A stretch of DNA of 64,000 nucleotides from Paramacrobiotus metropolitanus. Its lineage: Eukaryota; Tardigrada; Eutardigrada; Parachela; Macrobiotidae. Of the stretch, positions 1,860 through 16,865 are shown one piece after another. The number at the start of each line of letters is the position of its first letter. The first letter of the stretch is position 1. The stretch is taken from assembly GCF_019649055.1 (NCBI RefSeq), contig NW_026570343.1:1-64000 (forward strand), written 5' to 3'. Position numbers and translations under genes: made by a program. The notes under the pieces were generated by a model, which did no database searches, was not told the origin of the DNA, and saw only the letters and a program-made list of their open reading frames with translations.

Positions 1860-2640
1860 CGCACCCGGACAATTGGGAGTGGGACATTTCGCCGCACTCA
1901 AACTCGACGCGCGACTTTTCGCCGCGACGACATTTCGCCGCCGGACATTCGGACACTGGGACACTTCGGCTCGAGACATTATTCTTTTAGACATTATACC
2001 TTTGCGACATTTCGTGCGCAAGACTTGGTCGCGGACATTTCGTTTTGGGACTTTTCAAACGATGCGAATAATCGCCGCATAACTAAATCACCGCGCTTAA
2101 ATCTCACTAGATTTTCAGTTTTTAGGCTTGTTCTTAATTTTTCTTAAGTTTGTTAGACTATCTTTAGATCTGCTAATGCTTTCTTAGATTTACTTAGGCT
2201 TCTTAAGTTTCCTAGGTTCTTAGTTTTTTTGGGTTTCTCAGGTTTTTTTGGTTTCTTTGGTTTCTTAGGTCTCTTAGGTTATTCTTAGGTTTCTTAGGTT
2301 TTCTTTGGTTTCTTAGGTTTTTTAGGTTTTTTAGAATTCTTAGGTTTCTTGGGCTCGTTTGGTTTTGTCTTTTAGTTTTCCATTTTCTGACTCTTTTATT
2401 TAGCTCGGTAAATCATTTATCCGATAGGCGAAATGTCGCTTGGTCGGGATATCCTTGCTGCGAAATTTCCTTGCGTCGAAGCGGCCATGCGACGGAAAGT
2501 CGCGCGGCGGAAAGTCCTATAGACGAAATGTCCTGCGACGAAACGTCCCGCGAGAAAATGGTCTTGCGGCGAAATGTCCGCGACTAAAAGTCCTGCGACG
2601 AGTTGTCGGCGGCGAAATGTCGCGGTGCCATTTAAAAAAT
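1860..2640. repeat. Modular fold-back element A
   Basis: The left arm (about 1880-2070) is made of many degenerate copies of GACATTTCGCCGC. The right arm (about 2420-2635) is made of copies of the reverse complement (GCGGCGAAATGTC). Between them lies an array of TTTCTTAGG-type words (about 2150-2370). The open frames across the arms come from the repetition and are not genes. The same arm-array-arm plan, with different words, is seen at 3.1 and 12.6 kb. Confidence 0.7.
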
Positions 2641-3090
2641 TGCGGGATAAGCATTCTGCCGGTTTTCAAAAAATTTGTCATTTTGCGATTTTGTCGTAAC
2701 TTCGGAAATTTTTCTTTCAGTAGCTACTAAAATTGGTAACTGAACGAATCTGAAATGCTTATGGTAAGCAAAGTTGTTTAATCGGAGCGAAAACAAAAAC
2801 AAAGGCCGCCATTTTGTTGGCCCATCCGGTAAAACGGGCATTGAAACCCATTGTTATGTACAAAATGTCAGGTTGCTAGTCAATTTGCTGCCCGATCTTC
2901 TTGAAACTTTGATTTGAAGGAGACATGGCTTTAAAGTAGAAAACGAAATCAATTTCACTTTTCAGTTGATAGCGCTTTCCCATAATTTTATACTTAGTTT
3001 TAATATTTTTGAAATGTATTTAAAAATCGAAAGAAGGTACCATGAATCTGATATTAAAAATCTCAAGTAACATATGAATCTGTATGTTGG
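2641..3090. other. Spacer between elements A and B
   Basis: AT-rich, no gene or repeat recognised. Confidence 0.5.
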
Positions 3091-3094
3091 AAGC

Positions 3095-3645
3095 CATAGT
3101 CGCGACCGGTTACTTCGGCCGCGTTAGACTTCGGCCGCATGCGATCACTTCGGCCAAAGTTCATTTCGGCCGAGGTTCACTTTGGGCAGCACTCATTTTG
3201 GCAACCGCAAATTTTGGCAACAAGACATTTGGCCATCTTAAATTTCCCAAGTTCTCCTAGTTTTCGTTTGTTGCTTCGGTTTTCTTAGGCTTCTTAGGTT
3301 ATTTTTCGTTTCTTGGCTTTCTTAGGTTTTTTTGATAATTATTTTTTGTTAGGGTTTCTTAAGTTATTCTTGGGATATTCTTAAGTTTTCTCAGGTCTCT
3401 TAGGTTTTCTTAGGTCATTCTTAGGTTATTCAGAAGTTGTTATCTTCAATCTTTTGTTAATCTTAAGTTATTCGAAAGGTTATGGTACCATCAAAACGTA
3501 GTTAAATCGAAAATAACGTTTTCTTGCCCAAATTCGATCAAAATAACGTCGGCCGAAATAAACTGCGGCCGAAGTTATGGTCGACCAAAGTGAATGCCGG
3601 CCGAAATGAACTTGGCCGAAATGAAAACGGCCTTAGTGATCGGTA
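3095..3645. repeat. Modular fold-back element B
   Basis: The left arm (about 3095-3230) repeats CACTTCGGCC and TTCATTTCGGCCG. The right arm (about 3535-3645) repeats the inverse (CGGCCGAAATGAA). The pair 3144-3190 and 3590-3640 is the clearest inverted match. The centre (about 3240-3470) is a TTTCTTAGG-type array like that of element A. No coding capacity is visible. Confidence 0.7.
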
Positions 3646-3911
3646 CAGCGCACGCATGATCCAAATCAAGTATCAAAAAGGGAGGTGAATGTTCATTTCC
3701 GCGCGAAGCGCGACACAAGATAAAGTCGTTACTGCAAAAAATGCGGTACAGCAATAAGAATCAAATTATTTTTTAATAAAACAGTAAAGAACCGAGTTAT
3801 GTCTTACTTGAGGCTGAATTAGTACAAGCTAGCGGAAGTCTAAGCACCGAATGCAATCCTAAAATCAGAGTAAAATTTAATGATCATAATTGTTTCGCGC
3901 GAAGCCCTAGA

Positions 3912-4712
3912 GGGCTAGTATGGGAGCATGCCGGGTTGTGACATTGCACGTGGTTCCATTGTGGTTCTATGGTGGTTCTATGGAGGTTCTATGGTGGTTC
4001 TATGTGGTTCTATGGGCGCCAAAAAAGAAGGCTAGTATGGGAGCATGCCGGGTTGTGACTTTGCACGTGGTTCCATTGTGGTTCTATGGAGGTTCTATGG
4101 GGGTTCCATGGTGGTTCTATGTGGTTCTATGGGCGCCAAAAAAGAGGGCTAGTATGAGAGCATGCCGGGTTGTGACTTTGCACGTGGTTCCATTGTGGTT
4201 CTATGGTGGTTCTATGGAGGTTCTATGGTGGTTCTATGTGGTTCTATGGGCGCCAGAAAAGAGGGCTAGTATGGGACCATGCCGGGTTGTGATTCTGCAC
4301 GTGGTTCCATTGTGGTTCTATGGTGGTTCTATGGAGGTTCTATGGTGGGTCTATGTGGTTCTATGGGCGCCAGAAAGGAGGGCTTGTATGGGAGCATGCC
4401 GGGTTGTGATTCTGCACGTGGTTCCATTGTGGTTCTATGGTGGTTCTATGGAGGTTCTATGATGGTTCTATGTGGTTCTATGGGCGCCAGAAAAGAGGGC
4501 TAGTATGGGAGCATGCCGGGTTGTGACTTTGCACGTGGTTCCATTGTGGTTCTATGGTGGTTCTATGGAGGTTCTATGATGGTTCTATGTGGTTCTATGG
4601 GCGCCAGAAAAGAGGGCTAGTATGGGAGCATGCCGGGTTGTGACATTGCACGTGGTTCCATTGTGGTTCTATGGAGGTTCTATGGAGGTTCTATGGTGGT
4701 TCCATATCCATA
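3912..4712. repeat. 117-bp minisatellite, seven copies
   Basis: Units start at about 3912, 4031, 4148, 4265, 4382, 4499 and 4616, so the period is 117-119 bp. Each unit starts GCTAGTATGGGAGCATGCC and holds a run of TGGTTCTATGG sub-repeats. Because 117 is a multiple of three, long open frames appear on the + strand. These are by-products: the translated repeat has no recognisable domain and the array has the copy-to-copy uniformity of satellite DNA. Confidence 0.9.
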
Positions 4713-4753
4713 GAACCAGTAAGTCACTAATGTCCTAACTTGGACATTCTCTC

Positions 4754-5086
4754 AGAGAGAGAGAGAGAGAGACGTCCCCGGACAGGTGCGTGGGAGCTGC
4801 TACGGAAATATCGTTTCTACCGTCAGATAGTGAAATTAGGAGCGACCGTACGCCGCTGTATCAGTGCCAGGTCTGCCGTCTTCACTGGGACGAAGAAAAC
4901 GAATTCCTGCTGCATTTGGCGGACAAACCGCATGAACGGCTTTTTGCTACTGGGATTTTCTTACATTGCACAGGATGTAAATTCAAAACCCGCAAACCAG
5001 CAAAGATGGGCAAACACATTGTTAAGTATCAATCGCAAAATGCGATGCAAGACTGTATCTTGCATGGTGTTACAACTATCCATTGA
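4754..5086 (+). pseudogene. Truncated paralogue of the zinc-finger gene at 11.75 kb
   Basis: From about 4772 the + frame encodes SPDRC..., then a C2H2 finger (YQCQVCRLHWDEENEFLLHL) and a second CxxC block (HCTGCKFKTRKPAKMGKH), ending in a stop at 5084-5086. The order and spacing match the intact gene at 11753-12172. Homology stops at a GA microsatellite (4754-4771) beside the minisatellite, and no in-frame ATG follows the upstream TAA. It is therefore either a 5'-truncated copy or an internal exon entered at the TTCTCTCAG acceptor. I favour truncation. Confidence 0.6.
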
Positions 5087-5460
5087 TTTATTGGTGTCAA
5101 ACTAAATATCATCAATTACTAGTGATCGTTGGCATTTCTACAAATTCATGAAATTTTCAGTACAGTGATTCGGGTACATTTACTTTTGCGACTCATGAAA
5201 TGCGATGACTTGGTGATCTCCGTGGAGGTATTAATTGGAGATTTTACGTTTCCGTCTGACAATAATCCGAAGCACTAATGTTTGGCTTGATGCTTTTGCA
5301 GCTGAAAATGAGAATAAAATACACGTGTCGTTTTTTTAAAGTACTTTGCTGAGAGCTAGAAAGAAACAAATTATATTTGCTTTCTATTTGCAAAATTTTC
5401 GCCTGGTAGCTATGCTTAATAACTACAGCAAGGATTGAACGGGCTTCGGTAAGAAACAAG
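5087..5460. other. Intergenic, nothing recognised
   Basis: AT-rich sequence with no supported gene or repeat. Confidence 0.5.
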
Positions 5461-5780
5461 ACACCACGGTTATCTCCAGCCGTAAGTCTTATGCGGTCGG
5501 CGTCCCCTTACCCTTTCAACTTCCGGCGGCGTTGACCGATGGACGGATACCACGTCCACGATTATCGTAGGCCGTTAGTATATACGGCCATCCGTGGGCA
5601 TAAATAGAAGGTGGCGGCAGCTGACAGAAGGACACCACCAGTGGTGGGAGAATATACGGTCACGGCGCATATTTCCATTCGTTAGCAACAACAATTATGC
5701 ACTTGTGCATTCAGTGGTGGTGACCAACGGACGGATACCTTCTATAAAAATAACATTTTTCTACAGTATAATCCGTGAAC
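5461..5780. repeat. GC-richer block with repeated GACGGATACC phrase
   Basis: GTTGACCGATGGACGGATACC at about 5530 recurs as GTGACCAACGGACGGATACC at about 5718. The stretch between holds small palindromes such as ACCACCAGTGGTGG. It resembles the word-based fold-back elements but the arms are not clear. Confidence 0.4.
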
Positions 5781-6399
5781 ATGGAGTCCTTCGGTATGCA
5801 CCGGTCGACTATACTGTCTATACCCTTTAGTAATATAAATTTCTGTTAAGTTTGTGGTCATTTCTGTTAAGGATATGGTTATTATAGTCTCATATAATTA
5901 GGTTTAGCATCCTTCATGAGCCGCTTAAGTACGCAGCGATAGTAAACGAAAAAATTGTTAAGGAATTTTGAGGTTTGACTAACTATGTTTCAGCTAGTTT
6001 TAAGCGTACTGTGGCATCAGCTTCAGTCGATAGTAATATTTACAACGTTACGCATTTGCACAATCACAATAAAATAATAATACTAGGGAAGTGCACCGCT
6101 GTTCGCTAACACTGGTAGACCGAAGCGAAGCTAGGAGTACTCGTATTTAGAGACGTATCTTCTCTTTAGACGCAGGGAAAAGAATTACACGTAGAAACGT
6201 TAATGTACTAATATATCTTAGTTTATTTTCGAGCAGAAAAACTCTGAGCCGCTCACTATCTGGTCGCGATATGGGATAATTAAACAGCAGTTATTCTTAA
6301 CACTGACTGCTGTATTTGCAATGATGGCTGACGGCAGACTGCATCTGAGAGAATTTTTCTTGATTTATTAATAATATTTACTCACGACATATTATGTAT
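5781..6399. other. Intergenic, nothing recognised
   Basis: AT-rich with no supported gene, RNA or repeat. Confidence 0.5.
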
Positions 6400-6500
6400 G
6401 TACTATGTATAATGTAATTATCGAATTTGAAGCCCCCCCCCCCCCAATATGTACAATGTAATTATCGAATTTGAAGCCCCCCCCCCCAAATAGAATCGCC
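6400..6500. repeat. Short tandem duplication with C-runs
   Basis: The phrase TACAATGTAATTATCGAATTTGAAG occurs once after 6409 and again after 6450, each time followed by a run of 11-13 C. It looks like local duplication; the minus-strand open frame through it (Gly-rich) is a product of the C-runs. Confidence 0.6.
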
Positions 6501-6892
6501 CCCGTAATTAGAGCCCACCCATAAGATCGTTTGAAAGTTATAAGCCCCCCCTGAAATAGAGGCCCATGGGCTTGATTACGGTATTCGAAGAAGATGGCAC
6601 AGGCGCTCCAGTTCTTTTTTTTTAACGGAAGCTTTTTCTGCTTTCTGCAGAAAAACTGGCTGTTTGTTTTTCCAAGCGACTTCATGTTTTCACGCGGGAA
6701 ACGCCGACATAGATAGAACCGGAAGCAGATTCTCTTTTGCCAATAGCTAGTGAACTTCCCTTTTAGTTTTAGCTGTCTAAGTACGGTACGCATAAAAATG
6801 AAACTCTCCATGCAGCGATTTTTGTTCGAAGATCGAGTATATAGTGGGAAACCCAAAACTTAAAAAAGTAGTTTCATCAGCAATGGTCCAGT

Positions 6893-7243
6893 GTACAAGC
6901 CCGTCCGGATGATGAGCACGATAGAGAACAGCGATAAATGTAAATTCATGGGTTGCGCCAAACGAGATACCACGCAACGCCACGCCACACTGTTCAAACA
7001 CGTAACATACGTTTGGCTGGCTGGTGGCCTGGTGCACGCCATATATTTCAAATGGGAATAATGGTAGTTGCCTGGCGCCAGGTGGTCAGAAAACGGTCGG
7101 TGCAGTAAGGGACAATCTAACTGCGGAGCGCATTTACGCATTGTGGCAAACGTAGTGCAGTGGCCATCGTGCTAGGCGCTAACATCGCGCTCAATATGCG
7201 TTAGCTGTATCTTCACGTGCTCATCATCCGAACGGGCTTGTAC
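6893..7243. mobile_element. Small inverted-repeat (MITE-like) element
   Basis: Bases 6893-6920 and 7216-7243 form a 28-bp inverted repeat with 27 matches. The 351-bp unit has no coding capacity. Just inside its right end (7153-7163) is TAGTGCAGTGG, the same word that heads the SINE-like copies in the introns of the right half. Confidence 0.65.
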
Positions 7244-8015
7244 ATGGCCAAAAACCAATAATTATAATTTTAGAGGATGCAAAAAGTGCACTGTATGTAC
7301 TGGCAATGTACTGATTGCCATGCTGTTCCTTTTGTGCTGAGAATATGTATTCGCGAAGCACACTGCTGCCTGATAACAACCTTGCTTCCTCACTTTTAAT
7401 ATGATTGGTTTGCCATATACTAAAATGTTTATGTTACTCTAATGCTACAATAATACTTGACACTTGACAGGCGGCAAGGTATCCTAGGATGCTTTGTTAT
7501 GGCAAGCAAGTTACTGGAAATAAAATCAAAACTAATCTGCAACCATAGACGGTGACGAACACTGCGTTGGGAAAACATAGGTAGTTCCTTTTGGCGAAAC
7601 AGGAACAGGACAATAACTCTACAGAAGTATGGTAAGTTCAATATTAAATCCAATGACAGTACACTGGATTACTGGCCATTGCCGGTGTTTGGAGTGTTCC
7701 CACTACATAAGCTGTCTTTAAACAAAAATTAACTTTTTCTGAGGGGTCCCTCTGACCGGTCCCTGGCAAGTAAGAAAGTAAGTACTAAGTACAGTATATC
7801 ACCGTGTAATATATATGTACCTAGTATCTACGATATTCAGGAAGGCCACGATTGCGCAATAATTTATTGTTGCGTGACCGACGTGACCGACGTGACAGAA
7901 AGTCCCGTTTTCTTGAACATAGAGGACCTTCGCTTCGCTTCGGTCGATCACAGTGCAAGTACTCTTACATATACAACGCCAATTCATATGCGGCATTTTG
8001 ATTCGGACTGATACA
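7244..8015. other. Intergenic, nothing recognised
   Basis: No supported gene. Minus-strand open frames here lack recognisable motifs. Confidence 0.5.
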
Positions 8016-8068
8016 GATGCAAACTGACTTTGCGAGTGGCCATACTGACTCGCAAAGTCCGTCTGCAT
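8016..8068. repeat. Hairpin (inverted repeat)
   Basis: Bases 8017-8037 pair with 8048-8068 (19 of 21) around a 10-base loop. It is isolated in non-coding DNA and may be the remnant of a small inverted-repeat element. Confidence 0.6.
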
Positions 8069-9505
8069 GACCTCCGGCCAAGGTGCGGTGTTGAATGAAC
8101 ACTTGGGATAATTTTGAAAATGAAGTGAACATCCGAAGCTGAATAATTACGTGAAAGGCTGCCATTTTTACGCAGTTTTTTAGCACGAGTTATCATTCAG
8201 GTGAACACGTGCACGTTGCATGACCACACTTTGTGTTACGTGGGCATAAGTTTGCTGGGCCTGCTTGTGGGGGAAGTCCATAAAGCGAGCTCATGCAGAT
8301 AAAAGTTCACATTGGACGGCCGTAAAAAGTTTTACGGTATTGCCTTTTTATGTCATTTCAGAGCCAAATAGTTTCAAATTGGTCCGGAAGGTCTTTGGGT
8401 GCGCAGCATCCAAGACTTTTTTAAAGAATCATGTAATGGACTGTGATTCAGAACTTCCGATTCGAGAATATTTTTATGTGCCTATTTCACCAGAGGTACT
8501 TAGTATTCACAGCTTTCGGCGCAGTCCAGTTACATTGCCTCACGCACTCGTAACGCTGTTAAATTGTACCATCGGCACTGTGGCGTAGCGCGTCGCTCAC
8601 GGCAGCGGCTCGCAACCCATGCTTTTGATTTTTCCCGCTCATACAGATCGGCTATTCTGATCAGCGGATGTGACTCTTCCAGACGGCGTGACGTATTTTT
8701 GTAAAAACTCCGCGTTTTCCATATGGTGCAGCTTTCTTGATCTTGTGTGCTCGAGCGGCCGGGCGCGGCTTGCAACCTTGAAATATTTCATCCGTGAGTA
8801 ATAATCGTGCCAAGGGCGAATTTGCCATATACTGTTTAGTAATATGTACATACATACTCGCGCATACATACAATACAGACTATAATGCAGTTCTGCAGGT
8901 CTACTCTAGGAAAGGTACTCTGTATATATCTGTAATCTCTATTCGATCGTATAAAATATTATTTCAGTGCCCCGTGCATGTACTTCCGTTGCAGACAGTA
9001 TAATGTTGAATTTAGTATTACGCTTTTTAACCGCGGTCCTATTTTAATTTTTGCTTTGCAGGTACTGTACAGGGAAGTAACGGTGCAGAAGAGAGTATAG
9101 ACTGCAGTGCTAACCTTGCACAGTGGAACATATCAATCTCAAATTGTTCAAATCTTAACCATTTTGCCGTACTGTAGAATTGTTCACAATATTTCATGAT
9201 TTTAAGTATACGCTCGCTCATTATGCCCATTTTATTCTGGGGTGCGCTGCCAAAAAGGATGCAGTTCCACAGTACAGGTTAGAGGTACTGCGGCCGGAAT
9301 CGGTTCGTTCTCTGTATCGAGAAACGTAATACGTATCTGTACATACGTACCCCTGGAGCGTAACATGATACCCAAAAAAGGTTAAGTGTAATGTAGCTCA
9401 CAAAAGCTCACGTAACTCTGTAAGCTTATATAAACATCGTCTATGGGGTATAATCGTTAGTCGGGGTATAACTCGCAACCTTGTGCCGTTATGGAAAATA
9501 AACTC
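8069..9505. other. Intergenic; one unrecognised 107-codon frame
   Basis: A + strand frame at 8265-8588 encodes about 107 aa with no motif I recognise, so I do not call it a gene. The rest is AT-rich with scattered TACGTAC words. Confidence 0.4.
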
Positions 9506-9509
9506 GGTG

Positions 9510-10065
9510 TCAGAATCAGAGGTTGCCCATCTCCATTTTATTATGGAATGGATCCCATTTTTCCCCATTTACCATTTTTCCATACTAAAATGGTATGGAT
9601 GGGGAAACTGTATTTATGGATGGAGATGGATGGGAAAACGAAGAAATGGGCGGAAATGGGAAATTTAGAAAGTAGGGCAAAATGACGAATTAATACATTT
9701 CTACAACTATTTTGGTTGGCAAAATTCACAAAAATCCCCGAAACCTTCGCGCTTCGCGCGAAGATTTACGAAGGTCGTAATATTTTACACGTTAGGATCG
9801 AGAAAATTTTGGCAAAAACAGCGCTGAATTCTCGCTTTCCGTGAATAGCTGATTGCCAACGATGTATTCCGTAAGCCGGCGTCAAGCAAGTTTTTGGTTG
9901 TACGTTGTAATTTTATTTTTAAAAAATGGGGCGCTGAAATGGGGATGGAAGAAAATGGGTCTGATCCAAAAATTATGAAACGGAGATGGGCGGGAAAAAT
10001 TGTAAGAAAATGGGGTATGGATGGGATATGGAAAAAGCAGAAATGGGCAAAATTCAATTCGTCAC
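9510..10065. repeat. Modular fold-back element E (ATGGG words)
   Basis: The left part (9525-9680) holds CCCATTT words and then ATGGATGGG/GGAAATGGG words. The right part (9925-10050) is packed with AAATGGG, GATGGGCGGG and GATGGAAG words. The phrases near 9675 (GGGCAAAATGACGAATTAA) and 10045 (GGGCAAAATTCAATTCGTCA) are partly inverted. The centre contains a TTCGCGCTTCGCGCGAAG palindrome near 9747. Confidence 0.55.
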
Positions 10066-10245
10066 GATTTATTTGCTAGAAATAGCATAGCATCGATACG
10101 TACAGAAATATTATTTCTTGTAGGCTCGAAACATGATGGACCTTCTCCCCCAAATAAACTGCAAAATTTGGGGGTGAAAATTACAACGACTACATTGGAG
10201 TCTTAATATTAGATTAGAGTCTAGAGAACTGGTGCCGCTAGCATT

Positions 10246-11184
10246 ATGAATTATACTGCGAGGGACGCGAATTCTCCCAAACCGCTGCCGTTCCTGTGCA
10301 GCCAAGACGAATTCCGAGGAACCAAAATCCTGAATGCAGTCTTGATGCGGGCGATATGTCCATTTCCCGCTCCGGAAACAAGCGAAATGCAGTGCGGTAT
10401 AGTGCCGCACCACGTGATTGGTTTAACAGCTGAACCGAATGCGTCGCCAGGATGTGCAAATCGCTTCACTGAAGCAACGGCTGTGAGTGTCCATTCCCGA
10501 GACACTTCCGACCCTCCTCCGAAAGAAGAACAGGAAATCGTGGACGAATTCGATAAGGGTCGCACGTGCCGTTATCTAATGCAAAAATTCGGTCTCTCGC
10601 GGCAGTGCATTCGCCAGCGGCTGCGCGCCGCGGGGAGACCGGTTACTTTTCGGGAAAGGGATCGAAAGCGGTACGAAGCGTTGCGGCCGACTGTTCTTCA
10701 GCTGTTCCAGCAGCGCTGGACGATACGAGCCATAATGCGTCACACGAAAACGTCACGGTTGTTGGTGCAAAATATAATAGAGAATGCCAGTTCGTCTCTA
10801 ACAAAACCGCGACACCGGTCTAGATCGATCTATGAGCCGGCGTCAGTCAGCTCTGCTTCGAAATCCCCAGCTAAGCACAATCGTAGCGTTGTCACGATTA
10901 CGAGTCAGGGCGCTGTTGTGAGCAAACAACGTCCCAACGAAAGACCGGATCCATGGAATGGGCGTCAATACGATCGAACCGCACAAGAGCATATACCATC
11001 GCAGAACTCCGAAAGCGCATTAGCTGCAGGTGCCAAACTGTTTCTGGATGACGGGAAGTGCGAAAACGAACGCCGTACTACAGAAGTTACGGAGATCCAG
11101 AAAAAAACCGAAACCAATAAAAACCGGAGCGGTATGGCGAAAAACCACATTTCTTCTAAATTTCTTGGAAACAACTTTGAATAA
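10246..11184 (+). CDS. Protein with two tandem helix-turn-helix motifs
   Basis: A single open frame of 312 codons runs from ATG 10246 to TAA 11182-11184, with an AATAAA polyA signal at 11191-11196. Residues about 96-130 (EIVDEFDKGRTCRYLMQKFG, then LSRQCIRQRLRAAGR) have the pattern of a resolvase/transposase-type helix-turn-helix. Residues about 147-180 (LQLFQQRWTIRAIMRH...) look like a second one. The rest is Ser/Lys/Arg-rich and probably disordered. No DDE or other catalytic domain follows. I infer a DNA-binding protein, perhaps a domesticated transposase DNA-binding half or a transcription factor. The first 85 or so residues lack a domain, so an upstream exon could replace them. It lies between fold-back element E and a zinc-finger gene, among repeats. 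Confidence 0.6.
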   Translation: MNYTARDANSPKPLPFLCSQDEFRGTKILNAVLMRAICPFPAPETSEMQCGIVPHHVIGLTAEPNASPGCANRFTEATAVSVHSRDTSDPPPKEEQEIVDEFDKGRTCRYLMQKFGLSRQCIRQRLRAAGRPVTFRERDRKRYEALRPTVLQLFQQRWTIRAIMRHTKTSRLLVQNIIENASSSLTKPRHRSRSIYEPASVSSASKSPAKHNRSVVTITSQGAVVSKQRPNERPDPWNGRQYDRTAQEHIPSQNSESALAAGAKLFLDDGKCENERRTTEVTEIQKKTETNKNRSGMAKNHISSKFLGNNFE

Positions 11185-11379
11185 GTTGTTAATAAAACCG
11201 CTTTAATTAGAACTAGTTGCAAACTGTAGTTTTCGTCTCCAAAAATTACAGACCAAATCATGTCAATACCGAAAGCACAAACAATGGCAAAGCGATGTAG
11301 TTGTAAGCGTGCCAGCCTCGTGAAAAAGCCCTTTTGTGCGATATAACTCTGTGTTTTGCGAACTCATTGCGAAAAAGCA

Positions 11380-11675
11380 AAAAATTAAGTAATTTTAGTG
11401 AACAGCCTCGTTTACGTAAAATTAAGAAATTTAAGTAAACAGCCTCGATTAATTGTATATATTAATCTCCTGGGATGCTTAAAATACATACGGGATATTT
11501 TATTGTACTATTCTATCATTATGAAGGTACAGTAAGCACAAAAATATACAAAAGCTACACAGTAAAAAGTATTTATTTTACTGTACTATTCTATCATTAT
11601 GAAGTACTATTCTATCATTATGAAGGTAAGCACAAAAATATGCAAAAGCTACATGGTAAAAAGTATGGTATTAAT
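11380..11675. repeat. Two short direct duplications
   Basis: AACAGCCTCG is repeated near 11400 and 11440 with similar flanks. A unit of about 85 bp (GTACTATTCTATCATTATGAAG ... AAAAGTA, with CACAAAAATATACAAAAGCTAC inside) occurs at about 11502-11570 and again at about 11583-11668, with an extra copy of its head between. Confidence 0.75.
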
Positions 11676-11752
11676 CGCATGCTTTAAAACGTACTATTTT
11701 ATATGAAAACGTAACATAGGTATTTTTTTACTATTCAGTTCGCAGAAATCAG

Positions 11753-12172
11753 ATGAAAACCGATAATCCGAAACCTGGTTTCGAAATGGACACTGCATTT
11801 GAACAACGTTTCTCCGACCTACAAAAGGCAGATGAAGAAATTACGGATTATTCCAGTATTTCGCCGAATAGGTGCGAGGAGACTGCTTCCGAGATATCGG
11901 TGTTTCAGTCAGAGAACGCGATCCCGAGCCGCTGCAGCGCTAGGTACCAGTGCCGGATGTGCCATCTATTCTGGGACGAGCAGGAAGCATTCCTGTCACA
12001 TTTGGCCGGCGCAGAGCATGAGCAACTCTGTGCCGCCGGGATTTTCTTATACTGTACAGGTTGCCTGTTTAAAACTCGAAAACCGGTGAAGATGGGCAGA
12101 CACGTTATGAAATACCAATCGGAAAGTACGCTGCGCGACCGCTGCTTTCATGCTGTTAAATCTAGCCACTGA
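11753..12172 (+). CDS. Small two-finger C2H2-type zinc-finger protein
   Basis: A 139-codon frame starts at ATG 11753, right after CAGAAATCAG. The N-terminal 65 residues are acidic and Ser-rich. Then comes YQCRMCHLFWDEQEAFLSHL (spacing C-X2-C-X12-H-X5-H, the U1/matrin-like form) and YCTGCLFKTRKPVKMGRH, where the second histidine is replaced by Ser. Zinc fingers with this spacing often bind RNA or double-stranded nucleic acid; the role here is not known. A partial paralogue with the same order lies at 4754-5086, which supports real coding history. It could be the last exon of a longer gene. I do not recognise the family. Confidence 0.6.
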   Translation: MKTDNPKPGFEMDTAFEQRFSDLQKADEEITDYSSISPNRCEETASEISVFQSENAIPSRCSARYQCRMCHLFWDEQEAFLSHLAGAEHEQLCAAGIFLYCTGCLFKTRKPVKMGRHVMKYQSESTLRDRCFHAVKSSH

Positions 12173-12485
12173 ACTGGTGATGTACAGTTTTAGTGATTTC
12201 TGAGTTTGCTACTTGTTTGTAGTGTGAATTGTTACTTGTTAGTGAGCATCGGTTGTCATTTGCCCGTTTACTGATTGCTAAAATGTCATCAGTTTCTGGA
12301 GCGCTAAAAAAAAGCAGCCAAATTGGTCTGATGTAGCCAAGGCGTATTGATCATGTACACATATAGTATTAGATATGGCACACTTCGAACACAACAATTT
12401 TTTATGACCGCACTTCCAGGTCGTAGTCCAGTAGCCACCGTAGTAACCCATACACTTCATATTCTGTTTGTCGACTTCCGAAAAT
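12173..12485. other. Spacer, nothing recognised
   Basis: No gene or repeat supported between the zinc-finger gene and element C. Confidence 0.5.
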
Positions 12486-13710
12486 CTTAGTAGTCACTCT
12501 TAGTCTGGGTAGTAACCTGTAGTTTCCTGTAGGCCCGGTAGTTTACGTAGTTTTCTGTAGTCCCGGTAGTTTACGTAGTTTTCTGTAGTTTCCTGTAGTC
12601 TCAGTGGCCAATGTCAAAACGCCGGCCGAATTTCCTGCCGACCGAATTTTTGTGTGGTCAAAACGCCGACCGAATTTCCTGCCGGCAGAATTTTTGATGG
12701 TGAAAATGCCGGCCGAATTTCTTGTGGTCAAAACGCCGGCAGAATTTTTTCAACATTTTCAACTTCTAGTATAGTCATATTTCAAGTATTGTAAAAATAG
12801 TACCTGACACACGGTCTATTACTAGCGCTGATATAAGTGCAGTCTCTTTATCGGCACGCTTTTGGTGCTGCATTGACAGCTTGCACAGAAAGCTCGAAAG
12901 AAAACACAAAGGGCGTGCAAAAGAGACAAACAGGGTGTACAACAATGCTACTGCGGCAATAACGCCAAAGTTTGAGTTAGTCTAATCGTACCTGAGATTA
13001 CACAAACCTTTAATAAGTATCATGGTACGAGTACAAACTATGCACCAGAACAAAACGGCATTTACAAAACGGCACCTGAGATGAGTAAGAACTAAGCCAG
13101 GATTGCTGCAGGTTTAATAGGCGCTATTATTACATCCAAACTACGCTAACTGCAGCTTTTTTTTAGCATGTGATCGATTAAATTTATATATGATGATCTT
13201 ATATGCCCACATCCAATGCTTCCCTGTTTATTTGAATGGAGCACTGCGGCGGCATGTCGACAGAAATTGTAGACCAAAGCGAAAGACGAAATTATGATAA
13301 CAGTACACAAAGCTTTGTTATACACCGCTTGGAAAGTGTACTCCGATGCAGCCTGCCGGTACTATTTTGTTTTACTATTTTTACTTAAAGTTGAAAAAGT
13401 TGACAAAATTCTGCCGGCGTTTTGACCACAAGAAATTCGGCCGGCGTTTTCACCACCGAAATTCTGTCGGCAGGAAATTCGGTCGGCGTTTCGACCACAC
13501 AAAATTTCGGTCGGCAGGAAATTCGGCCGGCGTTTTGACATTGGCCGTCTCAGTAGTTTGCGTAGTTTTTTGTAGTTTCCTGTAGTCTCGGTAGTTTGCG
13601 TTGTTTGCTGTAGTCTCGGTAGTTTACGTAGTCTTCTGTAGTTTCCTGTAGTCTCAGTAGTTTGCGTAGTTTTCTGTAGTTTCCTGTAGTCTCGGTAGTT
13701 TTGCGCCTAT
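12486..13710. repeat. Modular fold-back element C with flanking arrays
   Basis: Arms at 12606-12763 and 13389-13546 are inverted; the outer 25 bp are identical, and the rest is close. Each arm is an iteration of about GTCAAAACGCCGGCCGAATT plus TCCTGCCGACC. Outside both arms lie direct (not inverted) arrays of GTAGTTTCCTGTAGTCTCGG and GTAGTTTACGTAGTTTTC (about 12490-12605 and 13547-13700). The 620-bp centre is not repetitive and encodes nothing recognisable. Confidence 0.8.
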
Positions 13711-13794
13711 GTATACTACAAGGACTACCGACACTACTGGGGGCCTCACAAACTACACAACTACAGGCGACTACGCTGGCTACACGAACTAGGG

Positions 13795-13960
13795 TATTAC
13801 AGGAAACTGCACAGACTTCCGGGACTACTGGTGACTACCGAAAACTACGCAAACTACCGAGACTACCAAAAACTACACAAACTACCAAGACTACCGAAAA
13901 CTGTACAAACTACCGAGACTACCGAAAACTACACAAACTACCGAGACTACGAGTTACTAC
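13795..13960. repeat. GACTACCGA/AACTACACA array
   Basis: Tandem words such as GACTACCGAAAACTACACAAACTACC run for about 160 bp. They are the complement of the GTAGTTT... array flanking element C, so this may be the opposite-orientation end of the same unit. Confidence 0.7.
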
Positions 13961-14150
13961 AGGCCAACGCACAAAATAATGAAAATGCAGGTAACTACGG
14001 GCATGGCGGAAAAATTTTGCCATTGTATAAACAGCCTTTGCGAATACATAGGCTACAACGGAAAGGTGCACTACATCGTCTAAGGATGGCCGTAAAAAAA
14101 TGTCGTGTTCAAGGTGTGCCATAGGTGTATAGTATTACGGGAATATTCGA

Positions 14151-14392
14151 TTTCGCGCACTTCAGAACACTTTTTGGAGTACTTTTTGACATTGTGTAGC
14201 CAGATGATTTGTACACATACCTAAGCGTGAAAACCTTTTGCGCGCAAACGGATTTCACAGCTACGTAAACAATTCTTTTGGCTACAAAACACCGTACAGC
14301 AATGCAAAAAAGTGTTTGGGAGTGCGCGACAGCGAAATTCCCGTGGATGTACACGAATTTCGTGCTATGTACCGGGCCAAATCCCTTAATAA
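14151..14392. mobile_element. MITE-like inverted-repeat element, copy 2
   Basis: The left arm (about 14151-14205, TTCGCGCACTTCAGAACAC... TGTAGCCAGA) pairs imperfectly with the right arm (about 14274-14335, TTTTGGCTACAAAAC ... GTGCGCGACAGCGAA). It is followed by CACGAATTTCGTGCTATGTACCGGGCCAAATCCC. The same layout is seen at 1-325. Confidence 0.75.
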
Positions 14393-14486
14393 GTCGCCAA
14401 CCGAAAATGAGATCCAGAAAAATTTCTGATCAACCGGGTGGAACGGAAACAATTTACAATAAATGAGGGCTTTATTTACTTCAATG

Positions 14487-14530
14487 CTCACGAATTTAGT
14501 GCTATGTACCGGGCCAAATCCTTTAAGAAA
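14487..14530. repeat. Partial MITE tail
   Basis: CACGAATTTAGTGCTATGTACCGGGCCAAATCCTTTAAG repeats the outer end of copy 2 about 145 bp downstream. Confidence 0.7.
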
Positions 14531-14814
14531 TGCAAATTCAGTTAAACGAATTGTAGCCCGAATTTTTGCCGCTCGGTATTGTTACCAGATGCTCGTTAGT
14601 TCTTCTTGTGCAATTTGGTGTGCTGGGAAAAGCACAATCAGGCATTTGGACTGATATTGTAAAAATCTGATTATTATTGAACTGACCGAGCAACTTAATG
14701 TTATCTTAATTATGCCGCCTGTTTATGCCTCATTAATAAGCCAGTTATATATGGAACGTTTCTTACCAAAGAAAAAAGCTGGAACGTTTTTCTGGTTCTT
14801 GTAGTCACTGTAGT

Positions 14815-15300
14815 CATCTGTAGACAACCTGTAGACACCCTGTAGACAACCTGTATACATCCTAAGAAAACCTAATACCAGGTGACTACAGTATGTCTAC
14901 AGTGGTGTCTACGGATGTCTACCAGTGACTACCGGTGTATACAGGCAGAGTATCGAGCTGAACCTAAGAAGGGCTACCTGTATACAGCGGTAGACATCCT
15001 GTGGACAGCCTGTAGACAACCTGTATATATCCTAAGAAAACCTGAAAAACCGAGAAACCAGGTGGCTACAGTATGTCTACAAGGGGGTTTACGGGCAGTC
15101 TACAGCGTGTCTACAGATGTATACAGCAGAACATCCAGCTGAACCTAAGAAGGCATGCCTGTATACACCGGTAGACATCTGTAGACAACCGGTAGACACC
15201 GTTGTAGACACGCTGTATACATCCTAAGAAACCAGGAGACTACTGATAGGTCTACAGGGTGTATGTATACAGATGTCTACTGTGACTACAAGGAGCTAAA
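14815..15300. repeat. GTAGACA/TGTCTAC word array with CCTAAGAAAACC
   Basis: Words such as CCTGTAGACAACCTGTAGAC alternate with TGTCTACAGTGGTGTCTAC, so parts are inverted. CCTAAGAAAACC, the complement of the centre word of elements A and B, occurs near 14862 and 15032, and a variant near 15223. About three units of roughly 160 bp can be seen. Confidence 0.65.
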
Positions 15301-15659
15301 AAACGATTCACTTTTTTTCTTTGGTACGAAACGTTCCACAGGTGACATCACGTTCCACAGGTGACATCGCTATTTATCGTTAATTCCTGCCAGTTGTAGC
15401 GGTAATAGCAAATACGCAGTTAAATTATCCGCAAATTCTGATGTGACATTTCGATGTGTGAGGTGATGCGACGTGCGGTTTGTGGAGTTAAAAGTCACCG
15501 GCATGGCCGCAGGTGCGCATTTGCAGCTGAGAGTCTTACCTGTCGGTACAGACTGCTCACTGCCGGCACCCTCCGCCTGTGCCCGATTTCTTAGTTTTAC
15601 CCAGGGGAAAATCAAAGAAACCGTTATGGCTTTAGCAAAGGGCGCCGTATATGGCAGGG

Positions 15660-15808
15660 TAATGCCACCAAATTCGTGCACATATGCGAAAAAATGTCCC
15701 TTTCACTCCAGAACACTTTTTGCATTGTTTGATCAATTTCTGTAGCCATGCAGATCATATGTACTCGTATACAGTGGCGTGAAAACCGTTTGCGGGCCCA
15801 TGCAGCCA
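15660..15808. mobile_element. MITE-like element, copy 3 (half)
   Basis: CCACCAAATTCGTGCACATA, CACTCCAGAACACTTTTTGC and GTGGCGTGAAAACCGTTTGC follow the order of the left half of copy 2. Fold-back element D starts directly afterwards, so D may have inserted into this copy. Confidence 0.55.
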
Positions 15809-15820
15809 ACAGGAAGGCTC

Positions 15821-16325
15821 ACGGGATAAAGGTTTACGATCAAAGGCGTTGCGTAAACATTTTCGCCGAAATTCGGCAGAAAGGTTTACGATACGATACG
15901 TAAACCATCCTGCCGGACTGCATAAACCTTTCTGCCGGCGACATCCATAAATCAGACAATGCCACCACAGGAGCCTTCGGGCTCTTAGGCTCATTCAGCT
16001 GCAAGTTACAGTACATCGTTCTTGTACTTTGACGCTTTTCGCAATCCGGACGCGTTTTCGCAATCCGATATAAATGCGCGTGTTGGACATTAAAGCCGTG
16101 GTATTCACTACGGTATTCCCTGCATTGTTTTACACTTCAAAAAACGTGCTAATTTTTCATTAACATCGTGTACAAGATTATATACAAACAACGCAGAGAA
16201 AATGCCTCTGGTCTTCTTTATGCAAATTCCAGATAGTGAAAACTCCAGATGGAGTCCTGCCGTTTTCGCAGTCCGCCAGGATGGTTTACGCGGCCGGCGC
16301 CTTTGATCGTGAACCTTTAACCCGT
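15821..16325. repeat. Modular fold-back element D
   Basis: Bases 15821-15848 and 16298-16325 are inverted (26 of 28). Inner bases 15899-15921 and 16268-16290 are also inverted (22 of 23). The arms repeat CAGAAAGGTTTACG and CTGCCGG words. The 505-bp unit has no coding sequence. A related arm lies at 23.2-23.4 kb. Confidence 0.8.
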
Positions 16326-16865
16326 AAACTTTTCTTCTTTAGCACATTTTTTTCCACAGGAAACCGAATGAGATCCACAAAAACACGAGACGACGGGGAA
16401 CAGGAGGCGAGTAACCCTGATAAATCAGCTGCTCAGGAGAGCAGGAAACCGTTGCGTGTGCGCTCTGTGGGCTTTGCTTGAACGCTGGATCCTGGTGTTA
16501 ATTTCTCGTATGATGTTCTGTGCATTCCTCCCGTTTCCGCTGTTGGGGCTGACTGTTTCAGAGCAGTACCAGTTGCCGGTTTTGCTGCTGGTACTCAGTG
16601 TCGGTGAAGTTATCGAGCCGTGCCTGTTTGGCATACTTTGGGCTGCGAAAACTGTACGCTATCGAATTCGGTGGCGCTCGCGTTCCCCGTGTGAAAGCTA
16701 CACCCGAAGATAATGATGATGCACCGTTGTTGACTCCTTCCTGATACCCGTTAAGCATGCCTTTTTAGGAATGTACCCTTGCGCAGTTAGAATTATTCAT
16801 ACCGTTATAATATGTCATTTATTTGTTAACGATTTCTTTATTTAGCTTGCAGATTATACTTTTTG

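Follow-up and report, generated by a model that had tools for sequence, protein, structure and literature searches.

A stretch of 64,000 nt from the tardigrade Paramacrobiotus metropolitanus (assembly GCF_019649055.1, contig NW_026570343.1, positions 1 to 64,000 of the forward strand) was analyzed; it is called the window below and lies on the contig labelled C123 of the searched genome of 170 Mb in 533 contigs. Seven fold-back elements, A to G, were found in its first part, each with two inverted arms that are built of short repeated words and flank a centre. An initial annotation, based on the sequence alone, had described five of them (A to E, E less clearly) as one family with element-specific words, and F and G were found in addition in the same range. 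The left arm of each element was aligned locally with the reverse complement of the right arm, and the best score was compared with those of 200 shuffles in blocks of two bases. The inverted arms exceeded 200 of 200 shuffles in all seven elements and thus also at the five places named before, with the following scores (shuffle maximum in parentheses): A 58 (21), B 37 (20), C 143 (19), D 28 (16), E 25 (21), F 58 (20), and G 96 (23). The arms of E and D were the weakest, and E surpassed its shuffles by a narrow margin only.

All seven elements were placed on the plus strand. Element A (1860–2629) has GACATTTCGCCGC-like arm words, and its window copy lacks a clean target-site duplication (TSD). 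Element B (3101–3648) has TTCATTTCGGCCG-like arm words, a central TTCTTAGG array, and no TSD. The centres of A (2180–2350) and B (3281–3431) both contain a TTTCTTAGG array, which occurs again at locus L104 (4919–5051) beside a transposase frame, a common centre combined with differing arms. Element E (9517–10056) is gene-less and looks hAT-like; its intact copies end in CAGAGGTTGCCCAT and ATGGGCAACCTCTG, while the right end of the window copy is decayed and no TSD is present. Element F (12370–14128) has arms of GTAGTTT/GTAGTC words and is flanked on both sides by the TSD ATAGTAT. Element C (12606–13546) sits within the left arm of F and divides it; C has perfect-tip arms (GGCCAATGTCAAAACGCC), words of the type CGCCGGCCGAATTTC, and the 8-bp TSD GTCTCAGT. 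Element G (14746–15344) has CTGTAGACA arm words, the ends TATATATGGAACG and CCACAGGTG, and no TSD in the window. Element D (15801–16346) has AGAAAGGTTTACG arm words and ends like TGTAGCCGGCAGAAAGG, and the window holds a diverged copy without a clean TSD. Long inverted arms with internal tandem repeats, the structure of Foldback-type elements, characterize these window elements as well as the transposase-bearing elements described below.

A search of the genome with each of the seven elements, similar to the arm search proposed in the initial annotation, found dispersed copies elsewhere for all of them; the outcome expected of satellites, no copies and no TSDs, was not obtained. The copies of A, B, E, and G matched most of the query, and those of C, D, and F mainly the arms. 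The left tip of A occurred 147 times in the genome with at most one mismatch, and the reversed pattern not at all. In the searches with the elements, only the best candidates were scored, so that these copy counts are lower bounds. Eighty stretches around copies were taken, the tips were set by alignment, and TSDs were counted with one mismatch tolerated at 7 bp and longer; flanks paired from different copies served as controls. For A, TSDs were found in 11 of 21 copies (6 at 8 bp and 5 others at 9 bp; controls 0/420 each), and for C in 16 of 21 (9 at 8 bp and 7 others at 9 bp; controls 0/420 and 1/420). One C locus, L044, was paired across two elements; the 9-mer CAAACTAGG flanks its inner pair on either side, which would give 17/21. 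The lengths of 8–9 bp in A and C fall within the 8–11 bp of Mutator-like elements (MULEs). TSDs of 8 bp, the length of hAT elements, were present in 8 of 12 copies of E (control 0/132), and the E tip CAGAGG is also one that we take to fit hAT. TSDs of 7 bp were found in 4 of 7 copies of G (control 0/42) and in 3 of 4 of F (control 0/12), two of the six F copies examined being without a tip; this length presumably matches that of Galileo, a Foldback-like element of Drosophila. The claim of fold-back transposable elements therefore held, with genome-wide copies for all seven and TSDs above control for A, C, E, F, and G. The flanks of C in the window, joined over a single TSD copy, form a 36-base string that has an exact match at 13637 within the same F element, a paralogous empty site, and also occurs with one mismatch each in L076, L079, and L080. 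The TSD evidence for B and D is weak. For D, it comprises 3 of 9 copies at 6 bp (control 1/72), with 2 of 11 copies lacking a tip pair; in this count the window row is a false pairing with 9 mismatches. Within the TSD counts, the pairing of L062 started at an inner word.

A separate observation concerns L081 (422–8131), which contains two D elements 6.9 kb apart. The 6-bp sequence AACGCT is common only to the two outer ends of the pair, a pattern that a joint transfer of the 7.7 kb between them as one composite would leave.

No transposase gene was found in the window elements, as the initial annotation had noted, but elsewhere the genome holds such genes between arms of the same kind. The Pfam MULE domain was detected at no fewer than 39 places, and 22 of these loci, in sets of 14 and 8, were taken for study. 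Word-built inverted arms surrounded the MULE domain in 14 of the 22 loci (L082, L083, L091–L095, L096, L097, L098, L099, L100, L101, and L103). The words, as read by eye, were TTCATTTTGGCCACCA in L095 and L098, GGACATTTCGGCATA in L099, GACATTTCGCCTAACA in L100, GACATTTCGGCCGCCT in L101, GTAACATTTCACAACC in L103, GACAATTTGCTGACC in L096 and L097, GACTACGCGCGAGAG in L082, L083, and L092, GCTTTGCGCCCCGA in L091, GACTATAGGCACCCC in L093, and GCTATGCGCCAGGAAA in L094. The constant plan with changing words that had been claimed for the window was thus borne out for transposase-bearing elements as well. FLYWCH and MULE domains occurred together in L095, L096, L098, L099, and L100. FLYWCH was above the curated cut-off in L095, L096, and L098, and the FLYWCH matches of L099 and L100 as well as the MULE match of L095 were just below. 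The N-terminus is missing from the frames of L101 and L103. Matches to MULE and to ZSWIM-type RNaseH domains were obtained for L093, L094, and L086. Of the 14 armed loci, 3 have exact 9-mer TSDs (L098, L099, and L093; control 0/182) and 4 have TSDs of 8 bp; short lengths give chance matches in the controls (6/182 at 7 bp and 2/182 at 8 bp). L096 and L097, on different contigs, share 99.7% and 99.5% identity over two aligned pieces and have, by eye, the unlike 9-bp TSDs GAGCTCGCT and ATTGTGACA, and therefore they have probably moved recently.

The similarity of the arms tracked that of the transposases. A Mantel test with 12 elements, L092 (short arms) and L097 (the duplicate of L096) being left aside, yielded r = 0.83 (p = 0.0002). 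For the 7 Phantom-like elements, the value was 0.79 (p = 0.0012), and it was 0.78 (p = 0.031) after removal of the near-duplicate L098. The transposases of L095/L098, L099, L100, and L101 are 54–76% identical over the compared stretches, and those of L095 and L098, which share the same word, are 96% identical. In 9 of 10 pairs, which are not mutually independent, FLYWCH showed lower conservation than the MULE domain.

Words and tips were also used to place the window elements among these transposons. The words of B were nearest to those of L098 (z-score 17.9), followed by L095 (13.2), and the words of A to L099 and L100 (11.1 each). The layout of the tips agrees in B, L098, and L099, with CGCGTCCGATCACTTCGG, CGTGTCCATTCATTTTGG, and CGTGTCCGACCATTTCGG at one end and GGCTACCGATCACTTCGG, GCGCCCTATCATTTTGG, and GGCGTACCGACATTTCGG at the other; the tips of A are CGCACCCGGACAATTGGG and GGCACCGCGACATTTCGCC. 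On this basis, A and B would group with the FLYWCH-plus-MULE elements. Their relatives L095, L098, L099, L100, and L101 carry a MULE transposase between related words and tips, and the combination of a FLYWCH zinc finger with a MULE domain that defines Phantom was present among these relatives, A and B themselves being gene-less. The name Phantom-like, given by domain content, is thus a putative one. As an autonomous partner with A's own tips, one candidate was considered and rejected: among about 100 of the 147 tip places, the sole close pair of an A tip and a MULE place (contig C38, L092) consists of an A copy adjacent to a MULE element, whose arms it does not form. The words of C were nearest to an arm of L105 (z 16.8), and C appears to group with a divergent SWIM-type Mutator-like protein. 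L055, a C copy of 7.1 kb, is bounded on either side by C arms, has a TSD of 8 bp, and contains pieces of a protein in which a SWIM-like motif occurs; its frames gave a weak SWIM match only, and the link to MULE came from relatives. This protein had 20 matches in the genome, counting itself and second pieces. The words of D, E, F, and G had z-scores of at most 2.6 with every MULE arm.

Taken together, the window probably holds a nest of short, gene-less cut-and-paste DNA transposons of several kinds, whose words would be the transposase-binding arrays of the respective lineages. A and B may be derived from Phantom-like elements with FLYWCH and MULE domains, C from a divergent SWIM-type Mutator-like element, and E from a hAT-like one. 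The transposase of an autonomous element elsewhere would bind both arms and cut at the tips, insertion at a staggered cut and fill-in would generate the TSD, and gene-less copies would retain the arms. A, B, and C would accordingly depend on mobilization in trans. Binding of the transposase to the words is suggested by their position and by the analogy to Galileo, whose repeats were reported to have secondary binding sites (PMC3573991). The word array of the arms most likely represents the binding sites of the transposase of that lineage, and the words would differ between families because they diverged together with the transposase. The tips would have changed less, as would the short core ATTTCG/ATTTTG of the Phantom-like group.

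Several results weigh against this interpretation. Word-built arms were not recognized in the stretches taken for L084–L090 and L102, that is, in 8 of the 22 MULE loci; the transposases of L090 and L102 belong to the clade of L103 (91–98% identity over the compared stretches), flanking arms not being found, and L086 showed a single inverted pair of 45 nt (80%). Co-variation of words and transposases would also be expected from shared descent alone. A transposase-bearing copy with the exact words of A or B was not found, and a comparison by eye of the A tips with the MULE places, among about 100 of the 147 tip places, revealed no flanking A tips. Homology to MULE was not detected within the fold-back loci L001–L081 at an E-value of 1e-3 with 22 query proteins, the C-type protein excluded. 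L104 and L105, relatives of the L055 protein, have longer frames, in which the matches to MULE, Transposase_mut, and SWIM were all below the curated cut-offs, and C-like arm DNA was present on a single side only (60% alike in L104, 71–80% in L105). The words of C also reached z 9.9 with the words of B and z 6.4–7.0 with L095, L096, L098, and L101, which shows that word similarity is not fully specific. TSDs of B were found in one of 9 copies at 8 bp and in one of 9 at 9 bp (2/9 in total; controls 0/72), one of 10 copies lacking a tip pair; several of these rows take inner words as tips, and the window row is a false pairing with 7 mismatches.

The strongest alternative accepts the same transposons and assigns the words to gene expression or to escape from silencing, or regards them as products of slippage without any function. 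It is modelled on the targets of VANC, which are tandem repeats that vary among related VANDAL elements, also MULEs (PMC5735166). However, in the 14 elements observed, the two terminal arms carry the words in mirrored order, and the words are retained in gene-less copies, for which expression is not needed; the secondary binding sites reported for Galileo point in the same direction. We regard this alternative as unlikely.

According to a second alternative, which the initial annotation had proposed, the elements form a single family, and local amplification rewrites their arms continually. The constant plan is in line with it, and copies differ in how many words an arm contains (3–8 per strand in A, 3–9 in C). 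The vocabularies are also not entirely private: the words do differ between elements, but resemblance was detectable for B and C (z 9.9), A and C (5.0), A and B (3.5), and F and G (6.0). Nevertheless, the tips and the TSD lengths differ and reveal several kinds (A/B; C; E; F/G; D) rather than siblings of one family. In addition, the inheritance of the words was analyzed for A (21 copies) and C (17 of 21 copies, 4 being dropped by a length limit). Words of the same column were 0.92 alike across copies of A and 0.88 across copies of C, whereas words within one arm of a copy were 0.65 alike in both, similar to words of other columns in other copies. The words were therefore fixed before the gene-less copies of A and C spread, and rewriting from copy to copy was rejected for these two elements, in which words are inherited by position. 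As no turnover of words accompanied the gene-less spread, the words differ because the founding transposons differed, and a single, continually rewritten family is very improbable. Local satellites or hairpin amplification without transposition can practically be dismissed, in spite of the partly tandem arms and the long arrays in F copies, in view of the dispersed copies with fixed tips, the TSDs above control, and the clean empty site, which led to the rejection of single-locus satellites for A, C, E, F, and G, the TSD evidence being thin for B and D.

Gene-less transposons with lineage-specific words are not a new kind of element, and published precedents are Muta of Aedes and Tm1 of Meloidogyne. 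For Aedes aegypti, 14 MULE families were described, 13 with FLYWCH and one with SWIM, and short tandem repeats lie subterminally in 10 of the 12 families with long arms (PMC5225508); the initial annotation had thought such family-specific repeats in one genome unusual, which these Aedes families contradict. Muta falls within Phantom (PMC6446971), and Muta1 was termed a type 2 Foldback element (PMC5225508). Many MULE families per genome, long arms of repeated words, TSDs of 8–9 bp, and many gene-less derivatives are common to Muta, as described there, and the present elements, whereas the genome and the words are different, and a comparison made here showed that arm similarity co-varies with transposase similarity. 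Tm1, a Mutator/Foldback element, was reported to have a Phantom-like transposase with FLYWCH, 9-bp TSDs, derivatives resembling miniature inverted-repeat transposable elements, composite arms with tandem repeats of 13–15 bp, and asymmetric 7-bp end motifs (PMC3169594). In that account it represents one word family, CGATTCAGTATCCGC, whereas several dialects coexist in the present genome. The nearest functional parallel is that of VANDAL and VANC of Arabidopsis, for which tandem short motifs were described that differ between related MULEs and change with a protein encoded by the element (PMC5735166). VANC, however, is reported there as an anti-silencing protein, and its motifs occupy non-coding parts of elements whose inverted ends are short or missing, in contrast to the long mirrored arms found here. 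Galileo was described as having long, internally repetitive inverted arms, several subfamilies per genome, and the same centre with different arms, which is similar to the present case, but its transposase is of the P type (PMC3573991). A literature search found no paper that joins tardigrades with foldback and transposable elements.

A further proposal is more tentative, and we consider it somewhat less probable than its contrary. Related FLYWCH-plus-MULE transposases might each have a word of their own, the tips staying nearly constant while the word array and FLYWCH drift together, and a change of words might lead to mutually deaf lineages. L095/L098, L099, L100, L101, L103, and L096/L097 would then be six natural transposase-word pairs. 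If the words are addresses of transposases, related transposases with different addresses would open the co-change of a transposon and its recognition sites to direct study. The measured link between words and transposases, with fairly constant tips and variable words, is worth following in any case. For annotation, fold-back clusters like the present ones should be treated as non-autonomous transposons and neither as satellites nor as a new class.

Further features were observed in and around the window elements. The B copy of the window is part of a larger repeat that is shared, in window positions, with L022 over 2747–3907, with L021 from 2762, and with L024 from 3001 and is 76–86% alike, and B was therefore multiplied as a passenger. 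At 3909–4702 of the window, a unit of 117 bp that contains 11-bp GTGGTTCTATG repeats occurs 6.8 times in tandem, and the unit also adjoins the B copy in L021. Element E is adjoined by an open frame of 319 codons (10225–11184) with a match to the Pfam helix-turn-helix domain HTH_28 (E-value 1.6e-6). Outside of the described elements, 6892–6920 and 7216–7244 form an inverted pair of 29 nt that is 97% complementary, with 295 nt in between.

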